From a virus, in the IMG/VR virus record IMGVR_UViG_3300043468_000365, positions 32,433 to 96,432 of that record: a stretch of DNA of 64,000 nucleotides; one strand, given 5' to 3'. The position numbers were made by a program, and so were the translations under genes. Shown in pieces: positions 7,294 to 40,078 of the stretch (its first letter is position 1; each line of letters begins with the position of its first letter). The notes below the pieces were generated by a model that saw nothing but the letters and a program-made list of their open reading frames with translations, was not told the origin of the DNA and did not search any database.

Positions 7294-7368
7294 GCCCCTA
7301 TGGCAGAGTGGTTATGCGGTCGTCTCTAAAACGACTTTACGTGGGTTCAAGTCCTACTAGGGGCACCA
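7294..7368 (+). tRNA. tRNA with anticodon CUA (amber suppressor type)
   Basis: A full cloverleaf can be drawn: acceptor GCCCCTA/TAGGGGC, D stem GCA/TGC, anticodon stem GTCGT/ACGAC, T stem GTGGG/CCTAC with loop TTCAAGT, discriminator A and encoded CCA. The anticodon loop is CTCTAAA (7324-7330), so the anticodon is CTA, which reads UAG. It stands about 9 kb from the main array and just before an ORF interrupted by UAG. The amino acid is not predictable from the anticodon. Confidence 0.85.
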
Positions 7369-24903: not shown

Positions 24904-25400
24904 AGAAGATTTTACTTGCTTTCATTACGGTACTTGCTATTAGCGGTACCGCTGAGGCAAGAAATCAATATTCAAACGGAGCAACAGAGCCTAATCTATT
25001 AGACTCTATTCTCGGCACTCCGAACGGAAACTGGAGCGTAATGCCCAGACTCCATGGTCGTGCTAGACTTGCTTCGAGACACCATAACACCCATATGGCA
25101 GGACGAGGAAGAAACACTGGTGCTTCGGCATCAATCGTTGCATACGGAAGAATGCTTCAACATTCTGGTTTCCGTGTGTCGGAACATCCTGCTTTTGGAG
25201 GAGTCCATCATGTTCATCATGGTTGGGCTCATTATGCTGGTCGGGCAATCGACATCAACATAGGTCGTGGTGTAAGAGAGGCATCTAATCGTTCGACAAG
25301 ATCGAAGTTTGATGCCTTGGCTGCGAGAGCCAGAGCGGCAGGTTATACTGTGCTTTGGAAGGTAGCAGGCCACTTTGATCATATACATATACAGAAGTAA
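24900..25400 (+). CDS. secreted M15-type peptidase
   Basis: 166 residues with a signal peptide (to AEA, about 21) and a C-terminal D-Ala-D-Ala carboxypeptidase-like zinc domain: HYAGRAIDINIG near 116 gives the first His and Asp ligands and FDHIHI near 160 the last His. It would act on peptidoglycan stem peptides in the periplasm. Its own signal sequence allows export before lysis, unlike the endolysin at 27253. Confidence 0.75.
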   Translation: MKKILLAFITVLAISGTAEARNQYSNGATEPNLLDSILGTPNGNWSVMPRLHGRARLASRHHNTHMAGRGRNTGASASIVAYGRMLQHSGFRVSEHPAFGGVHHVHHGWAHYAGRAIDINIGRGVREASNRSTRSKFDALAARARAAGYTVLWKVAGHFDHIHIQK

Positions 25401-25408
25401 TATATAGA

Positions 25409-25433
25409 GGGTGGGGAGAAATTCCCACCCTTT
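25409..25433 (+). terminator. rho-independent terminator
   Basis: GGGTGGG/CCCACCC stem with loop GAGAAATT followed by TTTC after the M15 gene. Confidence 0.7.
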
Positions 25434-25451
25434 CTTATAGGATAAATCATC

Positions 25452-25655
25452 ATGGTCGAACTTGTAACAAAATGGACAGAACGAGCCAAGAAGGCAAGAG
25501 AACGATTGAACATCTGTGTAGAGTGTGAACATTTGGAAAAACAGTTTTACGTTTGTAAGAAGTGTGGTTGTTTTCTCAAAGGCAAGACTATGTTTCCCAG
25601 TTCATCGTGCCCTGTAGGCAAATGGGACAAATACACGGAGGAAAAGGATGTATAG
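25452..25655 (+). CDS. small zinc-finger-like protein
   Basis: 67 residues with CVECEHLEKQ, CKKCGC and a later SSSCPVGKW, giving at least two CxxC pairs. Similar Cys-rich proteins of unknown role are common in T4-like phages. Overlaps the next gene by eight bases. Confidence 0.65.
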   Translation: MVELVTKWTERAKKARERLNICVECEHLEKQFYVCKKCGCFLKGKTMFPSSSCPVGKWDKYTEEKDV

Positions 25656-26298
25656 AACATTTGACATTAAAGAATACTGGCCGCAGCCAAAACCTGGCGA
25701 ACTTATTCAACACGAATATTATAACCCTGCTGATCAAAAGATTATCGGTAATGTTTTCTACACGAAGCCAAACGACCGTTATGTCTACCAAGAAGACTAT
25801 CATGGCGGTGAGTGGAAAGCAACATGGGTTATGGACTACAATCATCCAAATGGTGTGATGGAGTTGGTCGATATCTATCCTGCCAAAAAGTATCAGTTCT
25901 GGACAAAGTTTAGAACAACTGCCTTTGTTGCTGGTAAAGAAATACCATGGGGTAAAGTCCAGAAGGTCGGTGACATAATCGATCAGGAACTTCAAATCTC
26001 CGCAATCAAGTCTACACCATTCATTTGGCCAGAAAAGGGTCGTCAAGTCGTAAACTTCGTTGCTCACCATGAAACATTTGATGTTGGTAATACTGTTTAT
26101 AAAGACGTTTTGGAAATCGCTTATGACCAGACATTTGGTAAGATGACTGCTGGTGCCAGATCATTTCAAGCCAAAGGAATTGGAATCGTTCAAATGCAGT
26201 GGCGTGGTTTTGGAAAAGATGTGGGAACTCATATGGCAGCGGTGACAAAGACTGGTCCCGGAATCGTAACGGAAGACAAGAGAATAATTTGGTATTGA
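25648..26298 (+). CDS. unknown phage protein
   Basis: 216 residues, rich in Trp, Lys and Gly, with no signal peptide or membrane segment. No family recognised. Its stop overlaps the -35 box of the next promoter. Confidence 0.65.
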   Translation: MYRTFDIKEYWPQPKPGELIQHEYYNPADQKIIGNVFYTKPNDRYVYQEDYHGGEWKATWVMDYNHPNGVMELVDIYPAKKYQFWTKFRTTAFVAGKEIPWGKVQKVGDIIDQELQISAIKSTPFIWPEKGRQVVNFVAHHETFDVGNTVYKDVLEIAYDQTFGKMTAGARSFQAKGIGIVQMQWRGFGKDVGTHMAAVTKTGPGIVTEDKRIIWY

Positions 26299-26323
26299 CT
26301 TTCTAGATCATCTATGCTATATT
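26295..26323 (+). promoter_or_regulatory. host-type promoter adjoining a start codon
   Basis: TTGACT (26295), 17-base spacer ending TGC, TATATT (26318-26323). The -10 touches ATG 26324 and the expected start falls on ATG 26330, so the deaminase mRNA is probably leaderless. Confidence 0.75.
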
Positions 26324-26329
26324 ATGAGA

Positions 26330-26740
26330 ATGCGAAAGATCAATAAGAACATTCTCCATACTCTGGAAAAGATAGCGGCAGCTAATCCGAACCCCACGGA
26401 AAAGTTTGCCGCTGCTGTCGTTTGGAATAATAAGATCATTTCCATTGGAATGAATAGTATGAAGTCGCATCCACTCCAAGCGAAGTATTCCAAGAATGAA
26501 CATGCGATCTTCCTTCACAGCGAGATTGATGCCATCAAGAATGCGCTCCGTGAGATTGATGTGGATGATTTTTCTAAATGCGACTTGTATATCACCAGAG
26601 TGAAGAAAGAGAAGCCATTCACCAAAAAGTTTGTGTGGGGTCTAGCAAAGCCTTGTGCTGGTTGTGAAAGGGCTATAGCAGCCTTTGGTCTAAAGCGAAC
26701 GATATACACTTGCGATGATGGATATGAGGTGATAGAATGA
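26330..26740 (+). CDS. cytidine/deoxycytidylate deaminase family protein
   Basis: 136 residues (two more if ATG 26324 is used). The zinc site has HSEIDAI near residue 63 (HxE) and PCAGCERA near 107 (PCxxC). Such enzymes deaminate dCMP or related bases; in phages they feed dTMP synthesis, which would fit the phage ThyX at 41317. Spacing differs from typical dCMP deaminases, so the substrate is uncertain. Confidence 0.75.
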   Translation: MRKINKNILHTLEKIAAANPNPTEKFAAAVVWNNKIISIGMNSMKSHPLQAKYSKNEHAIFLHSEIDAIKNALREIDVDDFSKCDLYITRVKKEKPFTKKFVWGLAKPCAGCERAIAAFGLKRTIYTCDDGYEVIE

Positions 26741-27123
26741 GCGATAAAACACTAGAAGACCTTGTGGAAGAATGTCCATATGAAACGAAACTGGCCGTTA
26801 CCGCATGGGTAATGAAACATATCGTGGAACATGCTCATAATCCTGGTTCTTTTCGTTATCTAATCTATGAACGCCTAGGATTTGGTCCTGACGCCTATGT
26901 GCCACTATATATGGCTGGCGGCATGGAAATCTCCAATGAGTTTGATATGGAGAGAATCGACAACATTAGAGCAAAGGTTAGAGAAGAAAAGATTGATGTT
27001 CTCAAGCCGATTCTTAGTTTGTGTGATGAACCAGGTTGCTTCAATAGTATTAGCACTGGTTGGCCTACCAAAGATGGTGGATATCGTATGACTTGCTCCG
27101 AACATCATAAGAAAGAAGAATGA
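26737..27123 (+). CDS. unknown protein with C-terminal Cys/His cluster
   Basis: 128 residues overlapping the deaminase by four bases. It ends with CDEPGCFNS and CSEHHKKEE, which could bind zinc. No family recognised. Confidence 0.6.
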   Translation: MSDKTLEDLVEECPYETKLAVTAWVMKHIVEHAHNPGSFRYLIYERLGFGPDAYVPLYMAGGMEISNEFDMERIDNIRAKVREEKIDVLKPILSLCDEPGCFNSISTGWPTKDGGYRMTCSEHHKKEE

Positions 27124-27260
27124 TATATATTGTTAATGTGTCCGAGTTGGCGAGAGTCAATCGTGAGTATTGGTGCTGTGAGTATGTTATCACTTACATC
27201 GGCTCCGCTGACTGTCCTGCTAGTGATTGCGAACTAAGAATAGGAGAAACTAATGGCTAA
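27120..27260 (+). CDS. cysteine-rich micro-protein
   Basis: 46 residues (MIYIVNVSELARVNREYW), four Cys, overlapping the genes on both sides by ATGA-type junctions. Supported by position only. Confidence 0.4.
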   Translation: MIYIVNVSELARVNREYWCCEYVITYIGSADCPASDCELRIGETNG

Positions 27261-27918
27261 AACATTCAAACAGGCATTTGCCGAAGCACGAAAAGCTGGC
27301 AAAGATGTATTTCTTTTTGACGGTAAACTATACACGACCGATGTTGCTGTAAAAGACGCTGACGAAACAAAGTTTGTTGACGTTACCAACACTGTGGCTG
27401 ACGCTAAGGTCCCTACTGCTGGTAAACTAAAGAAGAACGTATGGCCGCTCCAGCGTGAACTTCGTGCCAAGTTCGGTACACCAGATTACGGCGGAGCATT
27501 TAGAAAGCATATGGTTCAGGTCAATCTACCATATACCATGTGGATGGACGATATCAAGATCACCAAGACATGGATGAATAAGTCCTGTGCTGATTCTCTT
27601 GTTCGTGTTCTAACATATGTGTGGGACGAGAATGGCAGAGATTATGATAAGATTAAGGCACAGCAACTACATGTCTTTTCTGGCACCTGGAACATCCGTA
27701 ACATGCGTGGCGGTTCTTCTCTTTCTACTCATGCCTTTGGTGTCGCTATTGACATTGCCGCACCTTGGAACGCTCTTGGTAAAAAGCCAGGATATAATAA
27801 GCATTCTTTCACTGAAAAGTCTCTAATCGTTCAGGCATTTGAGGCAGAAGGTTGGATTTGGGGTGGTCGTTGGGAGCGTCGTCCTGACGGTATGCATTTC
27901 CAGGCTGCCCGTATCTAA
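27253..27918 (+). CDS. endolysin, M15 L-alanyl-D-glutamate peptidase type
   Basis: 221 residues. The C-terminal zinc peptidase domain has STHAFGVAIDI near 156-166 (His and Asp ligands) and DGMHFQAARI at the end (last His), as in phage M15 endolysins that cut the L-Ala-D-Glu bond of peptidoglycan. Residues 1-70 are a separate, unassigned domain that may bind the wall. No signal peptide, so it needs the holin. AGGAGAAAC precedes the ATG. Confidence 0.85.
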   Translation: MAKTFKQAFAEARKAGKDVFLFDGKLYTTDVAVKDADETKFVDVTNTVADAKVPTAGKLKKNVWPLQRELRAKFGTPDYGGAFRKHMVQVNLPYTMWMDDIKITKTWMNKSCADSLVRVLTYVWDENGRDYDKIKAQQLHVFSGTWNIRNMRGGSSLSTHAFGVAIDIAAPWNALGKKPGYNKHSFTEKSLIVQAFEAEGWIWGGRWERRPDGMHFQAARI

Positions 27919-27935
27919 CAACTGGAGTTTTTGTT

Positions 27936-28226
27936 ATGAAGATGATTCACAAGTATCCGCTTGGTACGGATATTCATCATAATATGGTGACAGAGATTGA
28001 AATGCCCAGAGGAGCACAGATACTATCATTGCAGATGCAGGGTAGTATTCCTGTCCTCTGGGCCGTCGTCAATCCCAAGAAAGAAAAACGTAAGTATGTG
28101 TTTCATGTCTTTGGCACTGGATATGAAATGCAGGATTATGAACGAAAGCATTATGTTTATGTTGGCACGGTTCAGCAATCAAGTTGGACAACTCTTGTTT
28201 GGCATATCTTTGAGGTGATAGAATAA
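27936..28226 (+). CDS. small conserved phage protein
   Basis: 96 residues with the pattern PRGAQILSLQMQ...PVLWAVVNP...FHVFGTG, recurrent in small beta-rich proteins of many phages (DUF7352-like). Function unknown. Confidence 0.65.
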   Translation: MKMIHKYPLGTDIHHNMVTEIEMPRGAQILSLQMQGSIPVLWAVVNPKKEKRKYVFHVFGTGYEMQDYERKHYVYVGTVQQSSWTTLVWHIFEVIE

Positions 28227-28855
28227 TGACAACATTGAGAACCGCACAGAAGAGAAAAGATTGGTCATACGATGTTATGACAGATTCGTATCGTCATATT
28301 TCTGGTGTCACTGTTGATAGAATAGATATAGCTAGAAACAACGGTGATTTAGAAACGGTACTAGATAATGCTTTAAAGATGGCTTCTGTAGGAGCGGCAG
28401 GAGCAGTTGGCGCACCATATAATCCGTCGATTGTCTATAATGGAGAACCGTTTGATGTCGATGTATCATCGGGATCCGCAATGATAACCTCATCTATCCA
28501 AAACGATCAACCTAGACATATTACAATACAAACGAGTCTGGGTGATATAGCTTTAAATCTCAAAACCGGAGACATTGCCATACCAGTAGGCGTCGGGCGT
28601 GATGATGCTATCCGTGAGTTTTGGCTAGGCTTTCAGAAGAATTTTCAGCCTCTTGAAAAGAAAAGCTATGAGGATAAGATACTTACTCTAGAAAGAGAAT
28701 TGGCAAAAGCAAAAACTTCTGCGACACTAATGCGGGCGGAAAATCAAAAAGAAGCCAGTAAGAGAGTTGCCGAAAAGATTGCCAAGAAGTATGCCAACGA
28801 AAAGTTCATCATGGTGAAACCCGCTGACTTAATCAAGTTTATTGAGGAAGAATGA
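28226..28855 (+). CDS. unknown protein with C-terminal coiled coil
   Basis: 209 residues: a beta-rich first part with GAAGAVGAPYNPS, then a Lys/Glu-rich coiled coil from about residue 150. Overlaps both neighbours by one to four bases. Possibly a virion protein; not recognised. Confidence 0.6.
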   Translation: MTTLRTAQKRKDWSYDVMTDSYRHISGVTVDRIDIARNNGDLETVLDNALKMASVGAAGAVGAPYNPSIVYNGEPFDVDVSSGSAMITSSIQNDQPRHITIQTSLGDIALNLKTGDIAIPVGVGRDDAIREFWLGFQKNFQPLEKKSYEDKILTLERELAKAKTSATLMRAENQKEASKRVAEKIAKKYANEKFIMVKPADLIKFIEEE

Positions 28856-29106
28856 GCGACAATCAAGAACTAATCGAACAACTACATGAACTAGCGGACT
28901 GGGTTGAGAAACACAACTCAGTCCATTGTCATTCTGTGCCACGAAAGGCAGCATATACTATTGCCAGACTGGAAGAAGACAATCACAGAATGCGACTACA
29001 GTTGAATAAGAACTTTTGGTCTATCCGAGACATATATGACAGATGTGTTGGTGCTATTCGACTGTGGATCTATTTGATAAGAAAAAGACTAAATACTCCT
29101 AGATGA
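28852..29106 (+). CDS. small helical protein
   Basis: 84 residues, helical, two Cys and a basic tail. Its 3' end contains the CTAAATA motif of the next transcript. Confidence 0.6.
   Translation: MSDNQELIEQLHELADWVEKHNSVHCHSVPRKAAYTIARLEEDNHRMRLQLNKNFWSIRDIYDRCVGAIRLWIYLIRKRLNTPR
29089..29095 (+). promoter_or_regulatory. late-type motif CTAAATA
   Basis: CTAAATA, 30 bases before the TTG start of the 29126 gene. Confidence 0.45.
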
Positions 29107-29125
29107 TAAAATTAGGAGTATTTTT

Positions 29126-30208
29126 TTGGCTGTTAAGAAACCAGACTCGAAAACTATTATAAGCGAAGTTGCAGGTCTCTTGAATAGTGTTTCTAAAAAG
29201 TATAACTTTCAAGTGGCTCCTACACAAAAACTAGGAAAGCCGTCTAAGACCAACTCAATGGTAAGAGAGTTTAGATTACAGTTGATTAATACTGGTAAGG
29301 ATACGTCCGAGGCGCTAAAGGCAGCAATCATGAAAGATTTAAAGGCTGCTGGCGTCACAAAAATAACATATAATAATATTTCACCAAATAGTAGCAAATA
29401 TCCTTCAGTATCTTTTACATATGAGAGTATGAAGTTCGATGCCGTTATAGCAAAGGGTGCCAACAAAGGTGAGAATTTCGAGAAGAAAACTATCACTGAT
29501 CTGGCAAGATTCTTTAAAAGTAAAGGTGTAAATAAAACATATCAGCAACTTGTGGAAAAACTCATTCAGTCGAATCCTGCGTTTGGCGTAAATGAAATTA
29601 AATCTGTGACACAAAGAACAGGTTCAACGAAAAAAGAAGGAGTAGCGACTGCTGATTTGGGAGCAATTATTGGTGACATTGTTATTGAGGATTCACGTAG
29701 TAAAAAGTGGTTTATCTCACTGAAAGATGTGAACGGAGCAACATTTAGTTCTTACTCAGGTGCTGCTTCTTTGTTTGATGCTACAGGAACTTTACAACCT
29801 GATTCAGCTGGTGCTAAGTTTTTAAACTCTTTTGGTGTTGATTTGAATAAAGTCCAAGAAGGCTTTGATGAAAGAAATAAAATAAAAAAGAAACGTCCTA
29901 AGCTAAAAGTTGCTACACCTAATCCAAAAGAGATGAAAGCTATTTTCGAAAGAGCGTGGGGTATGAATTACTTTTATGTGAGAAAGATAAATGCTACCGA
30001 TTGGAAAGTTTTTTGGATGGATGGTTCAAAATTAAAATCGTTGACCGAAAACATGACGGTTACAAAAGTAAACTATCCTAACACTGGATCAAAACAGATT
30101 ACTATTTACTGTTCAACACCTTCTGCGGAATATACAATCGAACTAAGAAATAGTAAAGCACAAGAATATCCAAACGATACTAAGTTTAAGATCGTTAGAT
30201 TCAAATAA
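29126..30208 (+). CDS. large unknown phage protein
   Basis: 360 residues from a TTG start with TTAGGAG in front. Lys-rich, mixed alpha/beta, without membrane segments. Two halves are visible: about 1-130, and 135-360 with KKWFISLKDVNGATFSSYSG. The latter resembles conserved proteins near virion genes in marine T4-like phages. A nuclease-like fold is possible but no catalytic set is clear. Confidence 0.6.
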   Translation: MAVKKPDSKTIISEVAGLLNSVSKKYNFQVAPTQKLGKPSKTNSMVREFRLQLINTGKDTSEALKAAIMKDLKAAGVTKITYNNISPNSSKYPSVSFTYESMKFDAVIAKGANKGENFEKKTITDLARFFKSKGVNKTYQQLVEKLIQSNPAFGVNEIKSVTQRTGSTKKEGVATADLGAIIGDIVIEDSRSKKWFISLKDVNGATFSSYSGAASLFDATGTLQPDSAGAKFLNSFGVDLNKVQEGFDERNKIKKKRPKLKVATPNPKEMKAIFERAWGMNYFYVRKINATDWKVFWMDGSKLKSLTENMTVTKVNYPNTGSKQITIYCSTPSAEYTIELRNSKAQEYPNDTKFKIVRFK

Positions 30209-30220
30209 GAGGATTCATTT

Positions 30221-31462
30221 GTGATTAGACTTTCACAGTATATTACAGAAGCAGCGGCCGAAAAGGATCGCCATCTAACACATATTGAGGACGCCGTTCT
30301 GGAAGGTGGTGTTGCTGGCACTCGCAACGCTATTCAGTTCCTAATCTCCCTTAGAGATATGTTTGCCGATGATGGTCAGACTCTATCAGAAGCAAGAGGC
30401 GGCCTTATTCTTAGAACTAAGTTCGACGGCGCTCCTGCTATCTATGCCGGTATCAATCCTGAAAACGGAAAGTTCTTTGTTGGCTCAAAGTCTATCTTCG
30501 CCAAGAATGCTAAACTAAACTATACAGAAGCCGATGTTAGAGCCAATCACCAAGGCGGTCTGGCTGATAAACTGTCTGCCGCTCTAAAGTATCTACCAGA
30601 ACTAGGCATCAAAGGTATCGTTCATGGCGACTTTATGTTCTCCAAAAGCGAACTAAAGGACGAGACAATCGACGGCAAGAAGTATATCACATTCCGTCCT
30701 AATACAATCACATATGCTGTTCCTGCCGATTCTAAACTGGCACAGCAAGTCAGAGCGGCCAAGATTGGTATCGTATTTCATACCACATATCATGGCAAGA
30801 CGATGCAGACTCTCCAGACACATTTTGATATCAATGTAAATAACTTCAATCCATCACGAAATGTGTGGTATAGATCAAATAAGTTTGTTGATGTTACTGG
30901 TCGTGCTACTCTTACAAAGGCAGAGAATGCTAGACTAACAGGCATTCTATCACAAGCTGGTTCACTATTCAGAACAATACCTGCCTCACTAATGAACTTC
31001 ATTGCTACAAACGAAACACAAAGAATCCAGATTATGTCCTTCTATAATCAGCGCATTCGTGCTGGTGAACATATGGGTGCGGGCCATACGGCACAGCTAA
31101 TCAAATGGGTTGGCGACAAGTATCAAAAGCAAATAGACGACGCCAAGATGCCAGCGACTAAAGCAAAGCGCAAGGCTGAAAGAGATATGATCCTTAGATG
31201 GTATCGCCAGAATGCTTCCGATCTAAAGAAGATATTCCAGCTTCAAAATCTATTGATTGATGCCAAGATGCTACTGATTGCCAAGTTCAACATGGTGAAT
31301 GATCTAGGCACATTCTTACATACAGCCGATGGTGGCTATAAAGTAACAACTCCAGAAGGATATGTGGCTGCTTGGTCAACTGGTGGTGATGCTGTCAAAC
31401 TAGTGGATCGTATGGAGTTTAGTAGAGCCAACTTCCTGGCTGTAAAGAACTGGGGCAAGTAA
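30221..31462 (+). CDS. ligase/nucleotidyltransferase-like virion-region protein
   Basis: 413 residues from a GTG start after AAGAGGATT. The motif LRTKFDGAPAIYAG (Lys67, Asp69, Gly70) is the KxDG motif I of covalent nucleotidyltransferases such as ATP-dependent ligases, and GIVHGDFMF and IGIVFHTTYHG could be later motifs. The family is widespread and uncharacterised in T4-like phages (DUF6267-like). The N-terminus RLSQYITEAAAE resembles the capsid-targeting leader of T4 internal proteins, with ITE a prohead protease site, so it may be packaged and injected. Confidence 0.65.
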   Translation: MIRLSQYITEAAAEKDRHLTHIEDAVLEGGVAGTRNAIQFLISLRDMFADDGQTLSEARGGLILRTKFDGAPAIYAGINPENGKFFVGSKSIFAKNAKLNYTEADVRANHQGGLADKLSAALKYLPELGIKGIVHGDFMFSKSELKDETIDGKKYITFRPNTITYAVPADSKLAQQVRAAKIGIVFHTTYHGKTMQTLQTHFDINVNNFNPSRNVWYRSNKFVDVTGRATLTKAENARLTGILSQAGSLFRTIPASLMNFIATNETQRIQIMSFYNQRIRAGEHMGAGHTAQLIKWVGDKYQKQIDDAKMPATKAKRKAERDMILRWYRQNASDLKKIFQLQNLLIDAKMLLIAKFNMVNDLGTFLHTADGGYKVTTPEGYVAAWSTGGDAVKLVDRMEFSRANFLAVKNWGK

Positions 31463-31554
31463 TGAAAAAGGAACCCGAAAAGAAGCCTACGCCTATCGTC
31501 AAAACTATTCGTAAGATAGTAAAAGAGGCAAGAAAGAAAAAGTTATATAAATAA
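31462..31554 (+). CDS. basic micro-protein
   Basis: 30 residues, half of them Lys or Arg, overlapping the previous stop by one base. TATAAATA overlaps its end. Confidence 0.45.
   Translation: MKKEPEKKPTPIVKTIRKIVKEARKKKLYK
31546..31553 (+). promoter_or_regulatory. T4-type late promoter TATAAATA
   Basis: Exact T4 late -10 consensus 28 bases before the 31582 gene. Confidence 0.7.
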
Positions 31555-31581
31555 GCAAATAAACCCGCAGAGGGAGCGAGT

Positions 31582-33585
31582 ATGTTCAATAAAAAAGTTG
31601 TATTCATTTTCGGACGTTTCCAGGTACCTACAAAAGGCCATGCTGAAATGATCCACTTCGGTGCTAACTATGCTAGAAAGATTGGCGCCGAGTTTAGAGT
31701 TTATACCTCCAAGTCCTGGGATCCTAAAAAGAATCCTCTTCCATATCAGCAAAAAGTAATGTTTCTTCGCCAGCTATTCCCTGGCATCAATATCGTTGAC
31801 GATCCAAATGCTACAACCGCATTTGCTATTTGTAAAAAACTCTCCGATGAAGGCGTCGAAGATGTGACAATGATTACAGGTGGTGACCGTGTAGCAGAGT
31901 TCAAGAATAGCATTGGCAAATATGTTCTGCCTAGAGACAATCCAAAGTTTGATAAGAACAAAAACTATGCCTTTAGACGCTTTGATGTAATCAACTCTGG
32001 CGGTCGTAAGGCAGGCGTATCTGGAACACAGATGCGTGAATATATCCGTGGTGGCAAGTTTGGCGAGTTTATGAAGACCGCACCTACCGCCGATAGAGCA
32101 TTAGCCAAGAAGATTTTCACCGCAGCCAAATCATATCTCAAAGAAGATACTCTAACCGAGGATCTATCTCGCAAAGAGTTTGATGGTATGCTGAAAAGTT
32201 TTATTGACTTTACTGTCGGCAAACTTGGCATTGTAGAACCTCCTGAAATAGAATACAAAGAAGCTGACGATCACGGCGACCAGCCATCATTTGGTGGTTA
32301 TTCACCAGGTGAGAAGAAGCTAATCGTTATGACAAAGAATCGTCATCCAATGGACATCTTTAGAACTGTCGCACATGAACTGGTCCATCACAAACAAAAC
32401 GAAGATGGTAGACTCGGTAAAGATATCAAGCAAGAAGGCTCAACTGGTTCAGATATTGAAAACGAAGCAAACTCGGAAGCAGGTAAAGTAATGCGTTGGT
32501 TCGGCAAGGCTAATCCAGATATGTTTGGTAAGTCATATGTTATAGAACATAAGGCAATCGTTCTTGGTGGTGTTCCTGGTTCAGGCAAAGACAAGATACT
32601 AAAAGAAGCTATTCTACCACATGGCTTTAGAGAAGTATCAGATAACAAGTTTTCCATCAAAGAGTGTAATGGTGATAATCTTGTAGTCAATGGCACCATG
32701 GCAGACTATGAAGCAACAAGACAAATCAAGAATATCCTTGAGAGTGCCGGTTACAAGACGATTATGCTATTTGTGAATACCAGCAATGATGTATCCAGAC
32801 AGCGTAACGAAGCAAGGTCAACCACTGGTGGTCGTGTCATTGCCGAAGAAAAGCGTTATGAAAAGTGGAGCAAGGCACAGTTCAATCTAAATCGTTATGA
32901 CCAGCTATTTGAGAAGGTTATTGAGGTAAAGAATGACCTTGACGCCAATACTATTGTTGAGACATACAATAAGTTCGTTGACTCCATTTCCAAAGAAGTG
33001 GAAGAGTTTCTATCCAGTGATATGGACCGCCGCTTTGAGAATATGCTAGAACAGTATTCGGACTTCTCACCAAAGGCAAAGAGCAATCCAGTAGGTGGCG
33101 CAGGAAACTGGGGCACACCTAAGCTAACAGATCGTTATAAGAAAGATACGCCAGGTCAGGAGCCAGGTAAGACAAGAGATATGGGTTATTATGAAACTAA
33201 AGTCTTTGGCAATCTACCCATCAAAGCGGATCGCCTTGGTCAGACATTTACCTCTGCCAAGAATCCTTCATTTGTCGGTGATATAACAAGCGATGATAAT
33301 CCTTTCATTACTGGTGAACCAAATCAGCTATGGTCTCCTATTGACCGTTGGATGATGAAAGAAGAAACTCGTAGAAGATTCAAAGCAAAGTATGGCAAAC
33401 TAGCCGAAGAAAAGATGAAAGAAACGGCTGAAAAAGTGAGAAAAGAAAGCCTGATTGACCCTTATATGGGATCAATGGGCATGACTCCAAACACAATGAG
33501 TCAAGATGAAGTAAAACCTGATGTGAACGCAGAGTTTGAAAAAACAGCATTGTTTGGAAAAAGAAAATACAAAAAGACTAAATAA
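31582..33585 (+). CDS. fusion: nucleotidylyltransferase, HExxH metallopeptidase-like and P-loop domains
   Basis: 667 residues. Residues 1-185: HIGH-type nucleotidylyltransferase fold (FGRFQVPTKGHAEMI at 10-24, SGTQMREYI near 147). Residues 195-320: a zinc-peptidase-like segment with AHELVHHK (264-271; HExxH). Residues 325-480: a P-loop domain with VLGGVPGSGKDKIL (327-340) like small kinases. The remaining tail is Lys/Glu-rich with repeated Pro/Gly motifs. KEDTLTEDL near 187-195 holds an LxE site between the first two domains. It lies behind a TATAAATA motif among virion genes. Related cytidylyltransferase-like proteins occur in marine phages; the triple fusion is unusual. NMN adenylyltransferase activity is one possibility. 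Confidence 0.75.
   Translation: MFNKKVVFIFGRFQVPTKGHAEMIHFGANYARKIGAEFRVYTSKSWDPKKNPLPYQQKVMFLRQLFPGINIVDDPNATTAFAICKKLSDEGVEDVTMITGGDRVAEFKNSIGKYVLPRDNPKFDKNKNYAFRRFDVINSGGRKAGVSGTQMREYIRGGKFGEFMKTAPTADRALAKKIFTAAKSYLKEDTLTEDLSRKEFDGMLKSFIDFTVGKLGIVEPPEIEYKEADDHGDQPSFGGYSPGEKKLIVMTKNRHPMDIFRTVAHELVHHKQNEDGRLGKDIKQEGSTGSDIENEANSEAGKVMRWFGKANPDMFGKSYVIEHKAIVLGGVPGSGKDKILKEAILPHGFREVSDNKFSIKECNGDNLVVNGTMADYEATRQIKNILESAGYKTIMLFVNTSNDVSRQRNEARSTTGGRVIAEEKRYEKWSKAQFNLNRYDQLFEKVIEVKNDLDANTIVETYNKFVDSISKEVEEFLSSDMDRRFENMLEQYSDFSPKAKSNPVGGAGNWGTPKLTDRYKKDTPGQEPGKTRDMGYYETKVFGNLPIKADRLGQTFTSAKNPSFVGDITSDDNPFITGEPNQLWSPIDRWMMKEETRRRFKAKYGKLAEEKMKETAEKVRKESLIDPYMGSMGMTPNTMSQDEVKPDVNAEFEKTALFGKRKYKKTK
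33578..33584 (+). promoter_or_regulatory. late-type motif CTAAATA
   Basis: CT-AAATA across the stop of the fusion gene, 45 bases before the next start. Confidence 0.4.
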
Positions 33586-33628
33586 GATAGAGTTTTCTAT
33601 ATTATAAGAAACTAAAAGGGAAACAAAA

Positions 33629-34957
33629 ATGAGTAATCCATTTCTAACAAAGAAGGACCCGCTATTAGAAGCAGTCCAGTCCGCCATGCAGGATGGTGAG
33701 ATTCGTCGTAAGGCCGAAGCCCTTGTAAACGAGGAGTTCGGTGTCTATTCTCGTAAGGCAGTTGTCCGTGAGGATCTTGCTGCTTATGATGCTCGCCTTG
33801 AGGAAGCATATAAGTGCATGAAGGAAGGTGAACAGATTGATGAAATACGTGATCGTCCAAAGAAAGATGATATAAATCGTCGTAAGCGTGATGCCGTTGC
33901 TATGAAACTCGGTCACGATAATCCCGAAGGTCGCAACAATAACTACAATGCTCCCGTAAGTATGCTAAAACATGGTCGCAAACTTATGAAGCAGGGTGTT
34001 ACCAAAGAAGAAAAAGCCGACAAAGACTATGACAAGGACGGCAAGATAGAGTCTCCAAAGGACGAAGTTTGGGGTTCTCGCTTCCGTGCTGCTAAGATGG
34101 CAGGCAAGATGGAAGAAGAACAGATCGATGAACTTTATGGTAAGGGTAAGTTACCAGATATTCGTCGCAAACATTCTGACGACTATCAAACACATAAAGC
34201 CAGAGCCAATTTTCATCATGGTGAAGCTGACAAGGCTGATGAAAAAGACGATGATGAAAAATTCGAGCGTCATTATGGGAAGGCAGTTGGGCATGAAAGA
34301 AGTGCAGAAAAATCCGCAGCTAAGAGAGGTCGTGCATCGGCTTTGATGGATCGTGCCAAGGCATCGTCCGATCTTAAGGCTGCTAAGAACAAGGCAAAGG
34401 AATATAGAAAACTTGCTAAAGAAGAAATACAGATTGATGAACTAAAGAAGCCAACTGCTAAGACAGCAATGCAGGCATATCGTCGTGCAGAAACGCATGA
34501 TGACATGGATGGCAACTGGAATAGAAGTAATCGTCTTTATAGATGGAAAGAAAAGAATCTTCCTGGCAAGAGTGCAAGAAATCAAAAGCCAACAGGAAAA
34601 GCAAAACTTCCTGATGTTAGCAATACAGATTTTCATAAGGATGGATATTCAGGCCATTTTACTAAAAAAGGCAAACTTACTAAGTCTGCAACCAAAGACA
34701 CAAAGGCCGATATCAAAAGTCGTCTTGGAAAACATACAAAACCAAATCTACCAGAAGGTTATGAACTTGACGAAGCGGCATATTCAGCAAAGGCTGCCCG
34801 TGCTGGTAAAGATATTGGTAAGCCAGGCAAGATGTTCTCTAAGATTGCTGCTAAAGCTGGTGAGAAGTATGGATCCGAAGAGCGTGGCAAGAAAGTTGCC
34901 GGTGCTATTCTAAAGAGAATCCGTGCCAAGCATATGAAGGAAGATTCGTCTTTCTAG
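33629..34957 (+). CDS. repetitive protein with QIDE cleavage-like motifs
   Basis: 442 residues, strongly charged and Lys-rich. Short repeats with EGEQIDEI (about 66), EEEQIDELY (162), EEIQIDEL (265) and YELDEA (377) precede helical basic segments. I/L-x-E is the recognition pattern of the T4 prohead protease gp21. It may be an internal head or scaffold protein cut into fragments. The C-terminus is a helical basic domain (GKKVAGAILKRIRAK). Ends in TAG; reading through would add 12 codons and stop at a TGA overlapping the next ATG. Confidence 0.65.
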   Translation: MSNPFLTKKDPLLEAVQSAMQDGEIRRKAEALVNEEFGVYSRKAVVREDLAAYDARLEEAYKCMKEGEQIDEIRDRPKKDDINRRKRDAVAMKLGHDNPEGRNNNYNAPVSMLKHGRKLMKQGVTKEEKADKDYDKDGKIESPKDEVWGSRFRAAKMAGKMEEEQIDELYGKGKLPDIRRKHSDDYQTHKARANFHHGEADKADEKDDDEKFERHYGKAVGHERSAEKSAAKRGRASALMDRAKASSDLKAAKNKAKEYRKLAKEEIQIDELKKPTAKTAMQAYRRAETHDDMDGNWNRSNRLYRWKEKNLPGKSARNQKPTGKAKLPDVSNTDFHKDGYSGHFTKKGKLTKSATKDTKADIKSRLGKHTKPNLPEGYELDEAAYSAKAARAGKDIGKPGKMFSKIAAKAGEKYGSEERGKKVAGAILKRIRAKHMKEDSSF

Positions 34958-34992
34958 GCGCACCGGAAACGGGTAAGTCGGTATCCGAGCAA

Positions 34993-35718
34993 ATGAGACC
35001 TACGGCCGCACAAGCGTTGGCTAAATTAAATAGTATGCCAAAGCCAGCGGCGCCGGCCGCAGCACAAGTTGGACGCACACAGGCAGTAGGCTCACAAAAC
35101 ATTAGACCTGCGGGATCGACTAATGCTGGTGGTAGCGGATCAGTAACTATGGCTCCACGTCCACCAGTAAGACCTACTAGTCTTGGCACAACTACAAGAC
35201 CGCCTGCTGCATCAACAGCAACAAAACCCGGCGTTGTTTCTAAGTCTGATCTAGATACATATAGAAAAAACGTAGGTAATCCGAATGCTACCTTAGGTCA
35301 GTATATGAATGATCTTAAAGGATTGACAGCACGTAAGGGTGGTGCAAATGATCCTTCTGTTATTCAAAAGAGACTTGATCCTAAGGGACTAAAGGCCTTT
35401 GATCCTTCAAAGGCTGAAAAAGCACAAGGTCCAGAGCAGTCAGCAGCACCCGCTCCAGCAACACCAAGAACAGATAGTAGCGTTCCTGGAGCATCTACAG
35501 CAGTCACTACACCAAAAGGTGGCTCGGATGCTATGACTCCTAATTATGGTAGAGAGAGTGATCCTCTTGATCGTACCAATTCACCTGTAAGTGGATCAAG
35601 GCATCAAGGTGGTGCTGGTCTTGATAATGAAAAAGAGGCAAAGAACAGAACTTCTCAAAATAGTCAAATTGCTGAGTCTGTCGTGTCCGTTGGTGCAAAT
35701 AAATATAGGATAGTATGA
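34993..35718 (+). CDS. low-complexity virion-region protein
   Basis: 241 residues rich in Ala, Pro, Ser, Thr and Gly, probably unfolded in large part, with a short folded centre (KSDLDTYRKNVGNPNATLGQ). NSQIAESVVSVG near the end holds an IxE site. The ATG is the first start codon in the frame and lacks a clear ribosome site. No family recognised. Confidence 0.6.
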   Translation: MRPTAAQALAKLNSMPKPAAPAAAQVGRTQAVGSQNIRPAGSTNAGGSGSVTMAPRPPVRPTSLGTTTRPPAASTATKPGVVSKSDLDTYRKNVGNPNATLGQYMNDLKGLTARKGGANDPSVIQKRLDPKGLKAFDPSKAEKAQGPEQSAAPAPATPRTDSSVPGASTAVTTPKGGSDAMTPNYGRESDPLDRTNSPVSGSRHQGGAGLDNEKEAKNRTSQNSQIAESVVSVGANKYRIV

Positions 35719-35885
35719 TGAAACATCCGTATGATGTAAAGAAACTCGTAAGAGAGGATCGTAAAAAAGTCCTCTCTAAGAGACAACAAATAAAAGCAAA
35801 TACAACCGAGACGGGCAAACCCGCTGATCCTGTAGAATTGGATCCAGCAAAACAGGGTATGCAGAACACCTCTCTAACTAACTAA
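35715..35885 (+). CDS. small charged protein
   Basis: 56 residues (MMKHPYDVKKLVREDRKK), overlapping the previous stop. Helical basic start, disordered end. Function unknown. Confidence 0.55.
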   Translation: MMKHPYDVKKLVREDRKKVLSKRQQIKANTTETGKPADPVELDPAKQGMQNTSLTN

Positions 35886-35896
35886 AGGAAACTACA

Positions 35897-36508
35897 ATGC
35901 CACTATGGGGTAATAAAGACAACGCTGCCAATTCAGACATTGCAGCAACAATTCAGGTCAATCAGGCAACCACACCTGGTAATCGTGCCAATCTATATGG
36001 CAATGTTACCATGTCTGCCATCACAACAAATCTAGCAATCGGACAGTTTGCTGTAGACACAAACGAAGTCCGTGCTAATCCAAGAATCCCACACTCCGGT
36101 TGGGTTCTTCGTAAAGAAGGCACCGGTCTTCGTGCTGGTCGTGTAACATACGAAGTTCTAGTTGCTACAGGTTCTATCGCTACCGATGGTTCCGATGACA
36201 CTAACTTCCCAGACTTTACACTACGCATTACCACACAGCCAACAAGCGCAAATGGTGCCGGCAATGTCAATCTAACTGTTGCTGCTGCATCAACACCAAC
36301 AGGCGCTACACTATCCTATACATGGCAGCGTAACGCTGGTGCTGGTTGGATATCTGTTCCAAATACAGCTGGTGTTTACTTCAACAATACTTCACCAACT
36401 CTTGTCGCAAATGCCGCAGTCGCAAACGCAAACACCTTCCGTGTTCTAGTTTCCGCAGCTGGAGCAAACACAGTTACATCCGCAAACGCTGCCGTAACAA
36501 CACCATAA
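35897..36508 (+). CDS. Ig-like virion structural protein
   Basis: 203 residues. The N-terminus MPLWGNKD is typical of conserved structural proteins of T4-like phages. The second half (about 110-203) reads as an Ig-like beta domain (VNLTVAAASTPTGATLSYTW). Such domains decorate phage heads or tails and may bind host surface sugars. AAAGGAAAC precedes the ATG. Confidence 0.65.
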   Translation: MPLWGNKDNAANSDIAATIQVNQATTPGNRANLYGNVTMSAITTNLAIGQFAVDTNEVRANPRIPHSGWVLRKEGTGLRAGRVTYEVLVATGSIATDGSDDTNFPDFTLRITTQPTSANGAGNVNLTVAAASTPTGATLSYTWQRNAGAGWISVPNTAGVYFNNTSPTLVANAAVANANTFRVLVSAAGANTVTSANAAVTTP

Positions 36509-36518
36509 GGAGAGTTAT

Positions 36519-38675
36519 ATGAAAACTTTCCGTGAACACCTAAACGAAGAAATCACAATCGGTGCCCTCGCTAGTGGGGGCATCGACATTGAGCGTGACG
36601 CCGTTAGAGACGAAGTAAATGGCATTCTAGCTGGTATCGCTGCCAGACCATGTGTAACACCTTATGCTTCACTCAATAAGGTTCGCAAGGCTCTAGCATA
36701 TTTCCACATTCATCTACCAAAGAAAGTCTATCTAGAGGGTAGACATGGTATTGAAGTATGGGAAGTAAATCAGTTTGGTAACAAGATGGGCTTCACCGAT
36801 ACAGGTGAATGGATCAATCAAGTTCCTGCCAAGTATTATCTTTTCTTTCACTATCATCTAGTCGGTTCCATGTATTATCTACAAGCCAAGATTGTGGATG
36901 ATAAAGAACTAGAATCCAAGATTGGTGCGGCTGAAAGTATGGTCGCTGAGGAAACATTAGAAGAAGCGATTCGTCATTCAACTTCACATAAAGTTGTTCA
37001 TGCCGATAGTAAAAAAATTGTTGCTCAGGGCAGTAAAAAAGAAATGATGAAAAAGATGAAGGAATTAAATTCCAAAAATCCAAGAAGTCATTTTTTGGGT
37101 AATTCGCCTAGTAAAAAAGTTGGTGATGTTTTTGGAGAAGAAACCGATGCTGCCGTCCGTCAGGCAGTTGCTAAGGCCGCTGCACCAAAAGAAAAGGCAC
37201 ATACTGTTCTAGACGATTGCGACTGTAGCCAAGGAGACTCACCAAGCACCCAGTCTGCCATCAAAGTTATGATGAAAAAGCAGATTGACGAAGATGATTC
37301 AACTAAAGCGATTCAAAAAATCGTTGCTAAGAATAAGATAAAAGATGTTGTCAGGTCTGGTAAAAAGAAAAGCCAAGCTTGGTATGATAAAATGACAAAG
37401 CGTGCCAATCAAAAAGAAGAAGTTGAACTTGACGAAGTATCTCTAGGCAAACTTGTTCGCTATAAGAGAGGTGCTGAAAAGTCCCATGGCGATGCTACTT
37501 GGGAAACTAAGTTCACCAAATCTATGGGTGATGATCCTTCTCCTTCTAAGGCATTAGCAAGAAAAAGAGAAAAAGGTATTGCTCTTGCTGATAAGAAGAT
37601 GAAAGGCAAGGCAAAAGTAAATGCTTCTATGCCTAAGAATGCTTACATGGAAGAAACCCAGATTGATGAAATCTCTAAGGAACTAGCAAACAGATATAGA
37701 AAGAGGGCACACGCCTCCTATACATATGCTGCTGGTAAGAGAGAAGATGACCGCTTTCACGAAAGGGCCGGCAAAGATATGACGGACGTTTTTGGTAAAC
37801 CTAAGTTTAAGGATAGACCAGAATCAGAAAAGGCAAAAGACGAAAAGACCATTGGAAAAAGACTAAAAGGTCTAACCATGGCACATAAGCGTCTAAAAGA
37901 AGAAAAGATTGATGAAGTATCCGCTGGTCTTGCTAGCCGTGCTGCCCATCATGCTTATGTAAAGTCCGATAAGATGAAGAAGGATGCCCAGAAAGAACCT
38001 GATATGTATTCTTATGTTCAGGCATTCCATAAAGGCGAAAAGAAGAACAAGCAAGGCATCAAGTTTGCTAAGTATGCTGCCAATAAGATGGAAGAAGATA
38101 AAGATCCTTGCTGGAAGGGTTATGAAATGGTTGGCATGAAGAAGAAGGGCGGCCGCCAGGTGCCTAACTGTGTGCCAGTCAAAGAAGAACAGATTGATGA
38201 GGTTTCTAAAAAGACTCTTAGAAGTTACCTTGCGAAGAAGAAAGATCGAAACAAGGATTACGCAACACCCGAGTCTTTTCGTAAAGGAATGCTATCTCCT
38301 AACCTTGCTAAAGACAAGATCAAAGGCAAGAATGTAAAAGTTCATGCTAAAGAAGAAACACAGATTGATGAACTAAAGCAGGCAACTCTCAAAGCATACA
38401 AGAGTGCGGCTAAAGCAGACCGCAATGTAAGTAAAGAAGTTGTTAGAAAAGGCCTTGACACAGAAGGCAAGTTCAAGCACGCCATCAAGAAAAGAAAGAA
38501 AGGTCTTGAAAGAGTATCTGATAGACTAGAAGAAAAGGCACCTCCAGGCGCAAAGTTTGAGCGCATGGTAAAGCACATCAAGAAAGGCTATTCTAAGGAC
38601 GGTCTAACTGCCAAAGAAAAGTCTATTGCTTACGCTACAGCATGGAAAGCAAAGAAGCGTGAAGAAAATAAGTGA
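36519..38675 (+). CDS. large QIDE-repeat protein (candidate internal head protein)
   Basis: 718 residues, highly charged. MKTFREHLNEE at the start resembles the capsid-targeting leader of T4 internal proteins (MKTYQEFIAE) and has an LxE site. Residues 1-145 look folded; from about 150 follow Lys-rich helical repeats, each introduced by an I/L-D-E motif: KQIDED (253), VELDEV (301), TQIDEI (379), EKIDEV (461), EQIDEV (556), TQIDEL (613). If cut by a gp21-like protease these would give separate basic DNA-binding-like fragments. DPCWKGYEMVGMKKKGGRQVPNC near 530 is a familiar short block in marine phage proteins. AAGGAG precedes the ATG. Confidence 0.65.
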   Translation: MKTFREHLNEEITIGALASGGIDIERDAVRDEVNGILAGIAARPCVTPYASLNKVRKALAYFHIHLPKKVYLEGRHGIEVWEVNQFGNKMGFTDTGEWINQVPAKYYLFFHYHLVGSMYYLQAKIVDDKELESKIGAAESMVAEETLEEAIRHSTSHKVVHADSKKIVAQGSKKEMMKKMKELNSKNPRSHFLGNSPSKKVGDVFGEETDAAVRQAVAKAAAPKEKAHTVLDDCDCSQGDSPSTQSAIKVMMKKQIDEDDSTKAIQKIVAKNKIKDVVRSGKKKSQAWYDKMTKRANQKEEVELDEVSLGKLVRYKRGAEKSHGDATWETKFTKSMGDDPSPSKALARKREKGIALADKKMKGKAKVNASMPKNAYMEETQIDEISKELANRYRKRAHASYTYAAGKREDDRFHERAGKDMTDVFGKPKFKDRPESEKAKDEKTIGKRLKGLTMAHKRLKEEKIDEVSAGLASRAAHHAYVKSDKMKKDAQKEPDMYSYVQAFHKGEKKNKQGIKFAKYAANKMEEDKDPCWKGYEMVGMKKKGGRQVPNCVPVKEEQIDEVSKKTLRSYLAKKKDRNKDYATPESFRKGMLSPNLAKDKIKGKNVKVHAKEETQIDELKQATLKAYKSAAKADRNVSKEVVRKGLDTEGKFKHAIKKRKKGLERVSDRLEEKAPPGAKFERMVKHIKKGYSKDGLTAKEKSIAYATAWKAKKREENK

Positions 38676-38910
38676 TCATCTAAAAGAAAGTAATACTACA
38701 TATACGGCTCACCTCAAATGGGCCGTATATGCTGGCTTCATCCTAATAGGCACAGGTATTGCTTCTATTGTTCATGGTCTTATACCATCGTTATTTGAGG
38801 GAACAACTGCCAAGACAATAATCGAAATGTTCTATAGAAGATTGTATAATCATTCTAATAGGCATTATCAGTATAAGATCATGAAGGAAATGAAACGAAG
38901 TAAGAACTAA
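38659..38910 (+). CDS. membrane protein of DUF6356 type
   Basis: 83 residues from a GTG at 38659. HLKESNTTYTAHLKWA followed by a hydrophobic segment and HGLIPSLFEG fits the small DUF6356 family. One or two membrane passes. The start overlaps the repeat protein. Role unknown. Confidence 0.6.
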   Translation: MKKISDHLKESNTTYTAHLKWAVYAGFILIGTGIASIVHGLIPSLFEGTTAKTIIEMFYRRLYNHSNRHYQYKIMKEMKRSKN

Positions 38911-38913
38911 GTA

Positions 38914-39300
38914 ATGCTTGATCTAAATGATGGAAACTTCTTGATATATGCGGCGAAATGCTATGATCGTCCTCACATCATCCAATCGGAGTTTGAGGAC
39001 GATCTAAAGCGCATCAAGTATATCAAGCGCCTTTTGAGAAAGTATAAACAAACTGGTGAGTTCAAGGAGAGACTTGTTCTAAACCACGTTATCATTCTAG
39101 CCAATGTCTTTGGTGTTGAACCCACCGTCAATATGCTATTTTACAAAATAGATCAAGAAGATTATCCTGTTCTGAAAACAATACTGATATATTTGAACTA
39201 TATGCCCGACCATCTAAAGGCTTCGTTTGATAAATACTATGTCAGGCAAGAAGAAATACCTGTGGATTTATCCATAGCAGATAGATTGAGGAAAATATGA
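38914..39300 (+). CDS. conserved T4-like phage protein
   Basis: 128 residues. NFLIYAAKCYDRPH, EDDLKRIKYIKRLLRKY and LVLNHVIILANVFG are conserved blocks of an uncharacterised protein found near structural genes in T4-like cyanophages and relatives. Helical. Overlaps the next gene by four bases. Confidence 0.7.
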   Translation: MLDLNDGNFLIYAAKCYDRPHIIQSEFEDDLKRIKYIKRLLRKYKQTGEFKERLVLNHVIILANVFGVEPTVNMLFYKIDQEDYPVLKTILIYLNYMPDHLKASFDKYYVRQEEIPVDLSIADRLRKI

Positions 39301-39716
39301 CAATCAAAGAAGATGCGCCGACAAACAATGTAGGTTCTGGTGCCATCGCCGGTGCAGGTATCGGACCAATGGGCGAACCTGGTGTTTCTAAGAAAGCACA
39401 AAGAAGAAGACAGCGTAATGAGAAATCAACTCCTACACCTGTCGTTATAAATATGCTTAGAAGAAAAGCACCAAATCCTATTGTAGAAGATTGTGAAACA
39501 TTTGCTGGTTCGGTTGTCTTCGAGGTGTCATCAAAAGTTTTTCATAATGCCAAGATGGAAAAGCGCAGAGGTAAACATTGGCGCAAGTACCTAGATGAAG
39601 ATGATTGTTTTGCCGAGATTAGAGAATATGCCGCAAAGAATCCTGGGAGAGGGATTGTATTGAGAAATGAAAGCACCGGTGAAATGTGTTATGCTCGCTA
39701 TCCCAAGAAGAGATAG
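39297..39716 (+). CDS. conserved T4-like phage protein
   Basis: 139 residues starting MTIKEDAPTNNVGSGAIAG, with a Gly-rich N-terminus and GPMGEPGVS, as in proteins encoded near virion genes of T4-like phages; the C-terminal half is basic. Ends in TAG. Function unknown. Confidence 0.65.
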   Translation: MTIKEDAPTNNVGSGAIAGAGIGPMGEPGVSKKAQRRRQRNEKSTPTPVVINMLRRKAPNPIVEDCETFAGSVVFEVSSKVFHNAKMEKRRGKHWRKYLDEDDCFAEIREYAAKNPGRGIVLRNESTGEMCYARYPKKR

Positions 39717-39733
39717 ACAGGACAAGAAAAGGA

Positions 39734-40078
39734 ATGGAAGCAACAATGGTTAACAACAACACCAACGACGATAATGATGCGGTTGGTGGTATCGTAGAGA
39801 AAGTTCCACACTTTATCACCGCCATTATTGCGGTGGGTGGTCTTATTGCTGCCTACTTTATGACCATTGGCGACTTCAAAATGAAGGACCTGGAACTTCA
39901 ACAAAAAGTAACTTACCTTGAAACAAAGGTAACTCGCATAGAAGAAACCGTAGATTCCATCAAGTCAAAGTTGGATTCTCGTATTCCTGTAGTGGACAAT
40001 GACCGTCAAGACCTTAGAAAGGAAATCGATAGTCTAAGGGAAGTTCTCCAACAAATGAAGCCATACCTAAAGAAATAA
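39734..40078 (+). CDS. membrane-anchored coiled-coil protein
   Basis: 114 residues from ATG 39734 after AAAAGGA. One membrane segment (FITAIIAVGGLIAAYFM) is followed by a coiled coil (LQQKVTYLETKVTRIEETVD) to the end. The layout is also that of an i-spanin, but a clearer spanin pair exists at 8.2-8.9 kb. Confidence 0.6.
   Translation: MEATMVNNNTNDDNDAVGGIVEKVPHFITAIIAVGGLIAAYFMTIGDFKMKDLELQQKVTYLETKVTRIEETVDSIKSKLDSRIPVVDNDRQDLRKEIDSLREVLQQMKPYLKK

Follow-up and report, generated by a model that had tools for sequence, protein, structure and literature searches.

A three-enzyme protein of a T4-like freshwater phage as a candidate for packaging into the capsid

What use does a phage have for a single polypeptide that joins a nucleotidylyltransferase, an HExxH domain and a P-loop kinase? 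The question is raised by a 64,000-nt stretch of viral DNA (positions 32,433 to 96,432 of IMG/VR record IMGVR_UViG_3300043468_000365, hereafter the window), which is contained in a 96-kb partial record (G000) of a freshwater (lake-water) T4-like, Kyanoviridae-like phage. A first-pass annotation of the window had pointed out the signatures TKGH, HELVH and GxPGSGK in one 667-residue protein, and had suggested NAD or nucleotide chemistry together with possible splitting by the prohead protease. We consider it rather probable that this is a late, capsid-packaged 'polyvalent' protein that is ejected with the DNA and is perhaps cut by a gp21-type prohead protease.

The gene (31582..33585, plus strand, as are all features described below for the block from 29126 to 38675) is an intact open reading frame (ORF) of 667 codons with an ATG start, which is preceded by a Shine-Dalgarno-like GAGGGAG and looks right on inspection of the sequence. 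Structure prediction with AlphaFold2 on 43 aligned sequences bears out the division into domains: residues 1–186 (NT), 195–318 (PEP) and 322–478 (KIN) were predicted with confidence as three separately folded domains, the linker at 188–193 is uncertain and the tail largely disordered. The pTM of only 0.35 for the entire protein is the value expected for loosely joined domains. G19-H20, S147, H265-H269, E293, E295 and G333-D337 are invariant in the alignment of 43 relatives. Since the motif residues are invariant and three separate folds are predicted, the three signatures are not a product of chance.

NT (31582..32139) is, by sequence and predicted fold, a nucleotidylyltransferase of the NMNAT/PPAT type. 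It features TKGH (residues 17–20, 31630-31641) and VSGT (146–149, 32017-32028; in the longer reading VSGTQMR, 146–152), corresponding to the (H/T)xGH and C-terminal (I/V)SxT..R motifs of the HIGH superfamily, with G19, H20 and S147 invariant. Cytidyltransferase families of PHROGs match residues 3–190 (phrog_3041 with 3e-34, a further one with 2e-26), and Pfam CTP_transf_like is found below its threshold. Comparison of the fold resulted in a tie between PPAT 3pxu (Z 13.9, rmsd 2.8, 150 aligned) and NMNAT 2r5w (Z 13.4, rmsd 3.0, 158 aligned), and sequence does not separate the two either. Of the chemistry suggested earlier, NAD is thus one option. Pathway 2 of NAD+ reconstitution consists of NAMPT and NMNAT. 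NAMPT/NAPRT (PF04095) was absent from all six records searched, which may be incomplete; a complete two-gene salvage pathway is therefore unsupported, and NAD+ restoration as the sole role appears doubtful because this partner was not found.

KIN (32545..33015) is, by Walker A motif and predicted fold, a P-loop kinase of the polynucleotide/zeta type. Its Walker A motif GVPGSGKD (330–337, 32569-32592) is invariant at G330 and G333-D337, and Pfam Zeta_toxin matches residues 363–454 with 38.9 bits (cut-off 22.3). The fold matches of Clostridium thermocellum Pnkp (CthPnkp; Z 14.9, rmsd 2.2, 137 aligned) and O-phosphoseryl-tRNA kinase (Z 14.2) are tied. Kinases of this family have an acceptor-side Asp and helices. 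An SD pair is present at 353–354 of the window protein, the D of which is not conserved in the family alignment (A1). The P-loop kinase fold and arginines conserved in the lid region are common to KIN, the bacterial polynucleotide kinase (PNK) CthPnkp and zeta toxin. Compared to these enzymes, about 45 residues are missing from the acceptor-side region of the short form of KIN, which is shorter than the domain of long relatives by this number as well. The KIN module is also present in gp053 of Agrobacterium phage Atu_ph07 (L025 5221-7557), a jumbo phage outside the Kyanoviridae. This protein of 778 aa differs in its N-terminal part, which resembles that of the product of an adjacent gene.

While the first and third domain assignments of the first-pass annotation are backed by fold matches, that of PEP (32164..32535) as a putative zincin-like metallopeptidase holds less firmly, being based only on its motif, its conservation and the secondary structure predicted for it. 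HELVH (265–269, 32374-32388) provides the HExxH motif and ENEAN (293–297, 32458-32472) a Glu as ligand on the helix that follows, and H265, E266, H269, E293 and E295 are invariant. In the AlphaFold2 model, a helix (197–215) is followed by strands at 222–225, 238–241 and 246–249, the HExxH helix (256–274) and the Glu helix (291–310). This layout fits a zincin, since the order of one helix, three strands and two helices is the one described for the zincins of polyvalent proteins by Iyer et al. 2017 (PMC5512222). Family matches are weak and comprise DUF6782, M78 and the metalloprotease family phrog_87 (5e-4, residues 220–300).

The remaining module, TAIL (residues 483–667, about 185 aa; 33028..33582), had been overlooked and is predicted to be mostly disordered. 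It contains the motif GTPKLTDRYKKDTPGQ (33112-33159), a GT..L..Y....TPG-like form of which is also present in HTVC008M gp128 and close to the C-terminal end of nucleotidylyltransferases from cyanophages. The pattern was found in 1 of 499 ORFs of G000 (the 667-aa protein), 1 of 735 in the related genome G001 (its relative) and 2 of 738 in the related genome G004 (its relative and a collagen-like false match). It was also found in 1 of 53 ORFs in 13 kb of HTVC008M, in none of 193 in S-SCSM1 and, across 13 cyanophage loci, in 10 of 326; the nucleotidylyltransferase gene accounts for nine of the ten, and the gene that follows it for the one in P-HM1.

The late promoter motif reported earlier was confirmed. 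The late-promoter-like TATAAATA (31546..31553) lies 36 nt upstream of the ATG, and 21 of 45 family representatives carry it within 150 nt upstream of the gene, compared to 0.58 expected from shuffles; its count in the window is unremarkable (5 found, 3.4 expected). It overlaps the last codons of a conserved, basic micro-ORF of 30 codons (31462..31554) between the upstream DUF6267 gene and the gene in question, and a similar peptide is present in all eight relatives inspected.

An IMG/VR protein search yielded 19 loci and an alignment search at least 519 confirmed relatives, the best 80 of which were kept. The family comprised 94 ORFs, or 46 once those with at least 90% identity were removed, and family hidden Markov models (HMMs) were run over 101 sequences, redundant contigs included. 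Full-length relatives exist in IMG/VR, so the fusion does occur elsewhere, though none of 50,697 phage records covers 80% of the protein; megablast with window positions 25000-40000 found no match among these records either. In the protein search of the phage collection, 528 records matched. The order NT-PEP-KIN-TAIL was found in every ORF with at least two detected modules. Complete proteins range from about 660 to 2,207 aa and grow by insertion between modules, namely of a HicA toxin (7 of 43 aligned members), DUF6321 (9 of 43) or a ligase-like domain. HicA-type inserts lie between NT and PEP with (L/I)xE on either side (L063, L064, L066, L067, L069, L070 and L075); Pfam backs HicA in L063 and L067, and two inserts score 38.7 and 41.5 bits (cut-off 27). 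The longest member (L088, 2,207 aa) begins with MLNKFKSYLAES, followed by ligase-like and pol-beta-like stretches, the four modules and DUF6321. We take its KTDGS...EGAVV to be ligase-like and its GGS...GDFDVQV to be pol-beta-like based on our own reading of the motifs.

Modules are also exchanged and occur separately. Compared to L006, the window protein is 56% identical in NT and 95, 93 and 95% in PEP, KIN and TAIL, respectively, indicating that the first enzyme was exchanged near the NT-PEP junction. NT motif classes include GRYNPPTxGH, GRFQVPTKGH, GKVRIPTxGH and GRFQPFHKGH. In the most distant relatives, identities to the window protein are 58–67% for PEP, 34–45% for KIN and 18–22% for most NT modules, which makes PEP the best conserved module in these sequences. 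The HExxH module is a separate gene in S-SRM01 (gp257) and B23 (gp332; MNYKQFLRES...), as is KIN in HTVC008M (gp129) and Melnitz (118) and NT in cyanophages; HExxH and NMNAT are fused in Flavobacterium phage immuto.

Relatives of NT are annotated as virion proteins. In the helicase-primase block of S-SCSM1, genes 89, 90, 91 (NMNAT), 92, 93, 95 and 97 carry this annotation and 94 and 96 do not; gene 91 is 29.8% identical to the 667-aa protein over 191 aa (3e-23), and gene 96 matches the window gene at 38914 (3e-28). The S-SCSM1 paper lists 45 proteins detected by mass spectrometry, NMNAT among them, and a cytidylyltransferase is reported in the virions of S-SZBM1 and S-CREM2. In these cyanophage enzymes (S-SCSM1 ORF91; S-SZBM1, S-CREM2, S-CBWM1) NT is homologous and the helicase-primase locus is the same, and most have the GT..L..Y....TPG-like tail motif. 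Unlike the window protein, the inspected ones (S-SCSM1 and relatives) consist of a single enzyme, and many have a targeting sequence of their own. The accessible text of the paper on jumbo phage CBB (PMC5259590) holds no passage on a nucleotidylyltransferase.

One gene on each side of the 667-aa gene carries a capsid-targeting-like N-terminus. The DUF6267 gene (30221..31462) begins with MIRLSQYITE/A (30221-30250; the slash precedes P1'), which resembles the T4 sequence, and the downstream gene at 36519..38675 with MKTFREHLNE/E. When N-termini of ORF-predicted genes were scanned with a strict targeting pattern (shuffle means 0.11-0.23), these two were the only matches among 161 genes of G000. 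In the other genomes, the pattern was matched by 2 of 232 genes in G001, namely DUF6267 and one gene located downstream of the corresponding block; by 3 of 224 in G004, two of which are of these kinds; and by 1 of 65 in 49 kb of S-SCSM1, the NMNAT. The mirror pattern gave one hit in G004 and none in G000, G001 and S-SCSM1. With a relaxed pattern, 9 of 18 nucleotidylyltransferases from other phages matched, two were near (P-TIM68, ...FFTEA; S-SSM7, with a GTG start) and seven did not match; none of nine genes upstream of other-phage nucleotidylyltransferases did. Thus, DUF6267 carries the signal in the window lineage, whereas many cyanophages have it on the nucleotidylyltransferase.

In T4, L/I-x-E is the site of gp21, and the first ten residues of IPIII form the capsid-targeting sequence (PMC9026906). 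Of such sites, one LxE had been noted between the first two domains of the window protein; two are present, LKE (186–188) and LTE (191–193), in a linker (32137..32160) with pLDDT <50 at residues 188–193, as expected for exposed sites of a prohead-protease substrate. For the family, (L/I)xE motifs were counted in regions bordered by HMM coordinates and compared with shuffles and a mirror motif. NT-PEP linkers contain 79 (at least one in 40 of 42; shuffle mean 23.8, mirror 15), PEP-KIN linkers 26 (in 21 of 45; shuffle 12.0, mirror 22) plus 41 V/F-x-E, and KIN-TAIL linkers 36 (in 20 of 41; shuffle 17.8, mirror 19). The motif is depleted within NT (10 in 42 domains, shuffle 25.4) and PEP (18 in 46, shuffle 43.1). 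TAIL contains 124 (shuffle 52.2, mirror 72). The motifs of KIN and TAIL were dropped as evidence for cleavage, since helical proteins are rich in such triplets and the mirror count for KIN is nearly equal.

By sequence, the junction before KIN is the clearest candidate for a cleavage site. In long relatives it is [LTE]GINDPGTFKAVFLAGGPGSGK and reads LTE/G, LNE/G or IAE/G, which matches the propeptide end of stand-alone kinases; these begin with ...LKE/GLYDPGIFKAFFLAGGPGSGK (HTVC008M) or ...LQE/GVYDPNIFKAIFLAGGPGSGK (Melnitz) directly before the domain. Of the 26 PEP-KIN sites, 13 have G at P1', and 14 of the 36 KIN-TAIL sites have A there. In the window protein, which lacks the spacer that long relatives carry before KIN, the junction is VIE (320–322, 32539..32547), with E322 invariant in the 43 aligned sequences. 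The prohead protease (Peptidase_S77) was found in five of five long relatives of 164-174 kb. In G001 and G004, LNE/A occurs in the major capsid protein, identified by a motif, about where T4 gp23 is cut. The propeptide of T4 gp23 comprises 65 residues.

Taken together, the reading we favour is the following. The 667-aa protein would be made late, with its three enzymes as beads on a string ahead of a disordered tail, and would enter the prohead alongside the capsid-targeted products of the DUF6267 and 36519 genes. A gp21-type protease would perhaps cut at (L/I/V)-x-E sites between modules. Ejected with the DNA, the enzymes could then act in a new host from the outset, by nucleotidyl transfer, phosphorylation and proteolysis. 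We presume that NMN or some other nucleotide, the 5' end of a nucleic acid or a different acceptor, and peptides serve as substrates. A role in nucleic-acid repair, combining PNK-like KIN and ligase-like DUF6267, is possible, with weak fold evidence for DUF6267.

Several observations weigh against this. The S-CREM2 and S-SCSM1 authors warn that detection in virions may be carry-over, and besides gene 91 the virion-annotated genes of S-SCSM1 have no convincing match to window genes. The 667-aa protein itself starts with MFNKKVVFIFGR and has no capsid-targeting N-terminus. A prohead protease was not found in G000, a partial record. (L/I)xE also occurs inside the folded KIN (214, shuffle 93.9), barely above the mirror count of 175, and the family counts are not independent of ancestry and hence only descriptive. 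Of the 79 NT-PEP sites, 38 have E and 12 have D at P1', an acidic residue in most cases, unlike LNE/A; both linker sites of the window protein have D, while clear sites in these phages have A or G; and its PEP-KIN site is VIE/H, whose V takes the place of the L or I required in T4. The proposed splitting by the prohead protease thus draws support from the concentration of sites in linkers and the T4-like context, and not from the residues at P1'; we regard cleavage at the linkers as possible.

These P1' residues would be explained if the protein were packaged and then stayed whole or were cut by its own zincin, in line with the proposal that zincins, the commonest domain of polyvalent proteins, act in self-processing (Iyer et al. 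2017, PMC5512222). PEP being the most conserved module in distant relatives agrees with this, whereas the three-fold excess of (L/I)xE over shuffles in NT-PEP linkers, its depletion in NT and PEP, and the match between the long-form KIN junction and the propeptide end of stand-alone kinases weigh against it, and we hold this alternative to be rather unlikely. More improbable still is a late enzyme that remains in the cell, serving either the repair of nucleic-acid ends, together with a ligase-like DUF6267, or nucleotide salvage of the NadR kind, which combines NMNAT with a P-loop kinase. NadR is among the Foldseek matches of the protein at rank 18, PNK is the best fit for the KIN fold, DUF6267 matches ligases weakly and resembles them in invariant residues, and the 667-aa protein has no targeting sequence. 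However, the nucleotidylyltransferase relatives and their neighbours are annotated as virion proteins, a peptidase and HicA inserts do not suit salvage, and its NAMPT/NAPRT partner was found in none of the six records. Finally, a role in the structure or scaffold of the prohead, with enzyme domains inactive by now, would account for the low-complexity tail, for the neighbours rich in I-D-E sites, which resemble multi-cut core proteins, and for the residues lacking in short-form KIN. The invariance of the P-loop and of the NT and PEP catalytic residues, and the replacement of NT by other nucleotidylyltransferases that retain (T/H)xGH, make this very improbable.

Parts of the favoured reading, packaging as an ejected polyvalent protein, have known counterparts. 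Polyvalent proteins of phages and conjugative elements (PMC5512222) resemble the 667-aa protein in combining unrelated enzyme domains in one polypeptide, in the zincin and in the late/virion gene context, and some have a zeta-like kinase. They differ in that the window protein comes from a T4-like phage, contains an NMNAT/PPAT-type enzyme, bears prohead-protease motifs in its linkers and has neighbours with T4-type targeting sequences; the words 'adenylyltransferase' and 'cyanophage' are absent from the accessible text of that paper. The gp21-cut T4 proteins Alt and IPI-IPIII (PMC9026906) share the (Y/F/L)xx(F/Y/H)(L/I)xE N-termini with the neighbours and the stand-alone relatives, and a gp21-type protease is also present in relatives of the window phage. 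T4 internal proteins have their own N-terminal signal, whereas the 667-aa protein has three enzymes and no signal. Polyvalent proteins with zincins, T4 capsid targeting with gp21 processing and virion NMNAT-like proteins of cyanophages are therefore already known, and the T4-type modular form looks new: no account of a modular T4-type polyprotein uniting the three, and no paper on DUF6267 or DUF6321, was found in the open-access literature searched.

As a broader and more tentative proposal, T4-like marine and freshwater phages might load their capsids via a modular polyprotein, so that one late gene gives rise to several mature injected proteins and the tail or partners replace the N-terminal targeting sequence. 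Its modules, which we suggest with the same reserve, would be swappable nucleotidylyltransferases, a zincin, a PNK-like kinase, a HicA-type RNase and ligase- or pol-beta-like domains, with prohead-protease sites in between. If true, T4 capsid targeting and polyvalent proteins would join in one code, with the borders of each cargo unit marked by motifs in the linkers. The sequences of the abundant Kyanoviridae-like phages could then reveal which effectors they inject, and the abundance of 'cytidyltransferase' genes in cyanophages would find a reason. The idea is open to test in cultured phages such as S-SCSM1.

Regarding the neighbouring genes, DUF6267 is present in 93 of 101 sequences. Its KxDG, EG and K residues are invariant, and we liken them to those of covalent nucleotidyltransferases (ligases); the ligase-like character, which rests mainly on these motifs, is a lead. 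Foldseek with the DUF6267 model returned nothing at E <0.001. In structure comparison T4 RNA ligase 2 ranked first, but with a Z of only 6.5 and with unrelated helical entries around it; confidence is low where the model holds the last motifs. Three weak matches from a PDB sequence search with the DUF6267 alignment were taken for chance. The gene further upstream (29126..30208) corresponds to virion-annotated S-SCSM1 genes in position only, its sequence match being unconvincing. Downstream, the gene at 33629..34957 has repeated EExQIDE-type motifs with several I-D-E sites, and the one at 36519..38675 carries a DPCWKGY...PNCVP mini-module that is also found inside long relatives of the 667-aa protein. 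Both genes feature many regularly spaced EExxIDE motifs and mini-modules common to the long relatives.

Elsewhere in the window, an RtcB-type RNA ligase gene is located at 60451-61677. A tRNA with a CTA (amber) anticodon (7294-7368), named tRNA-Pyl by ARAGORN, is a possible amber suppressor candidate; the phage has 26 further tRNA genes, and TAG terminates 3 of 46 listed genes.

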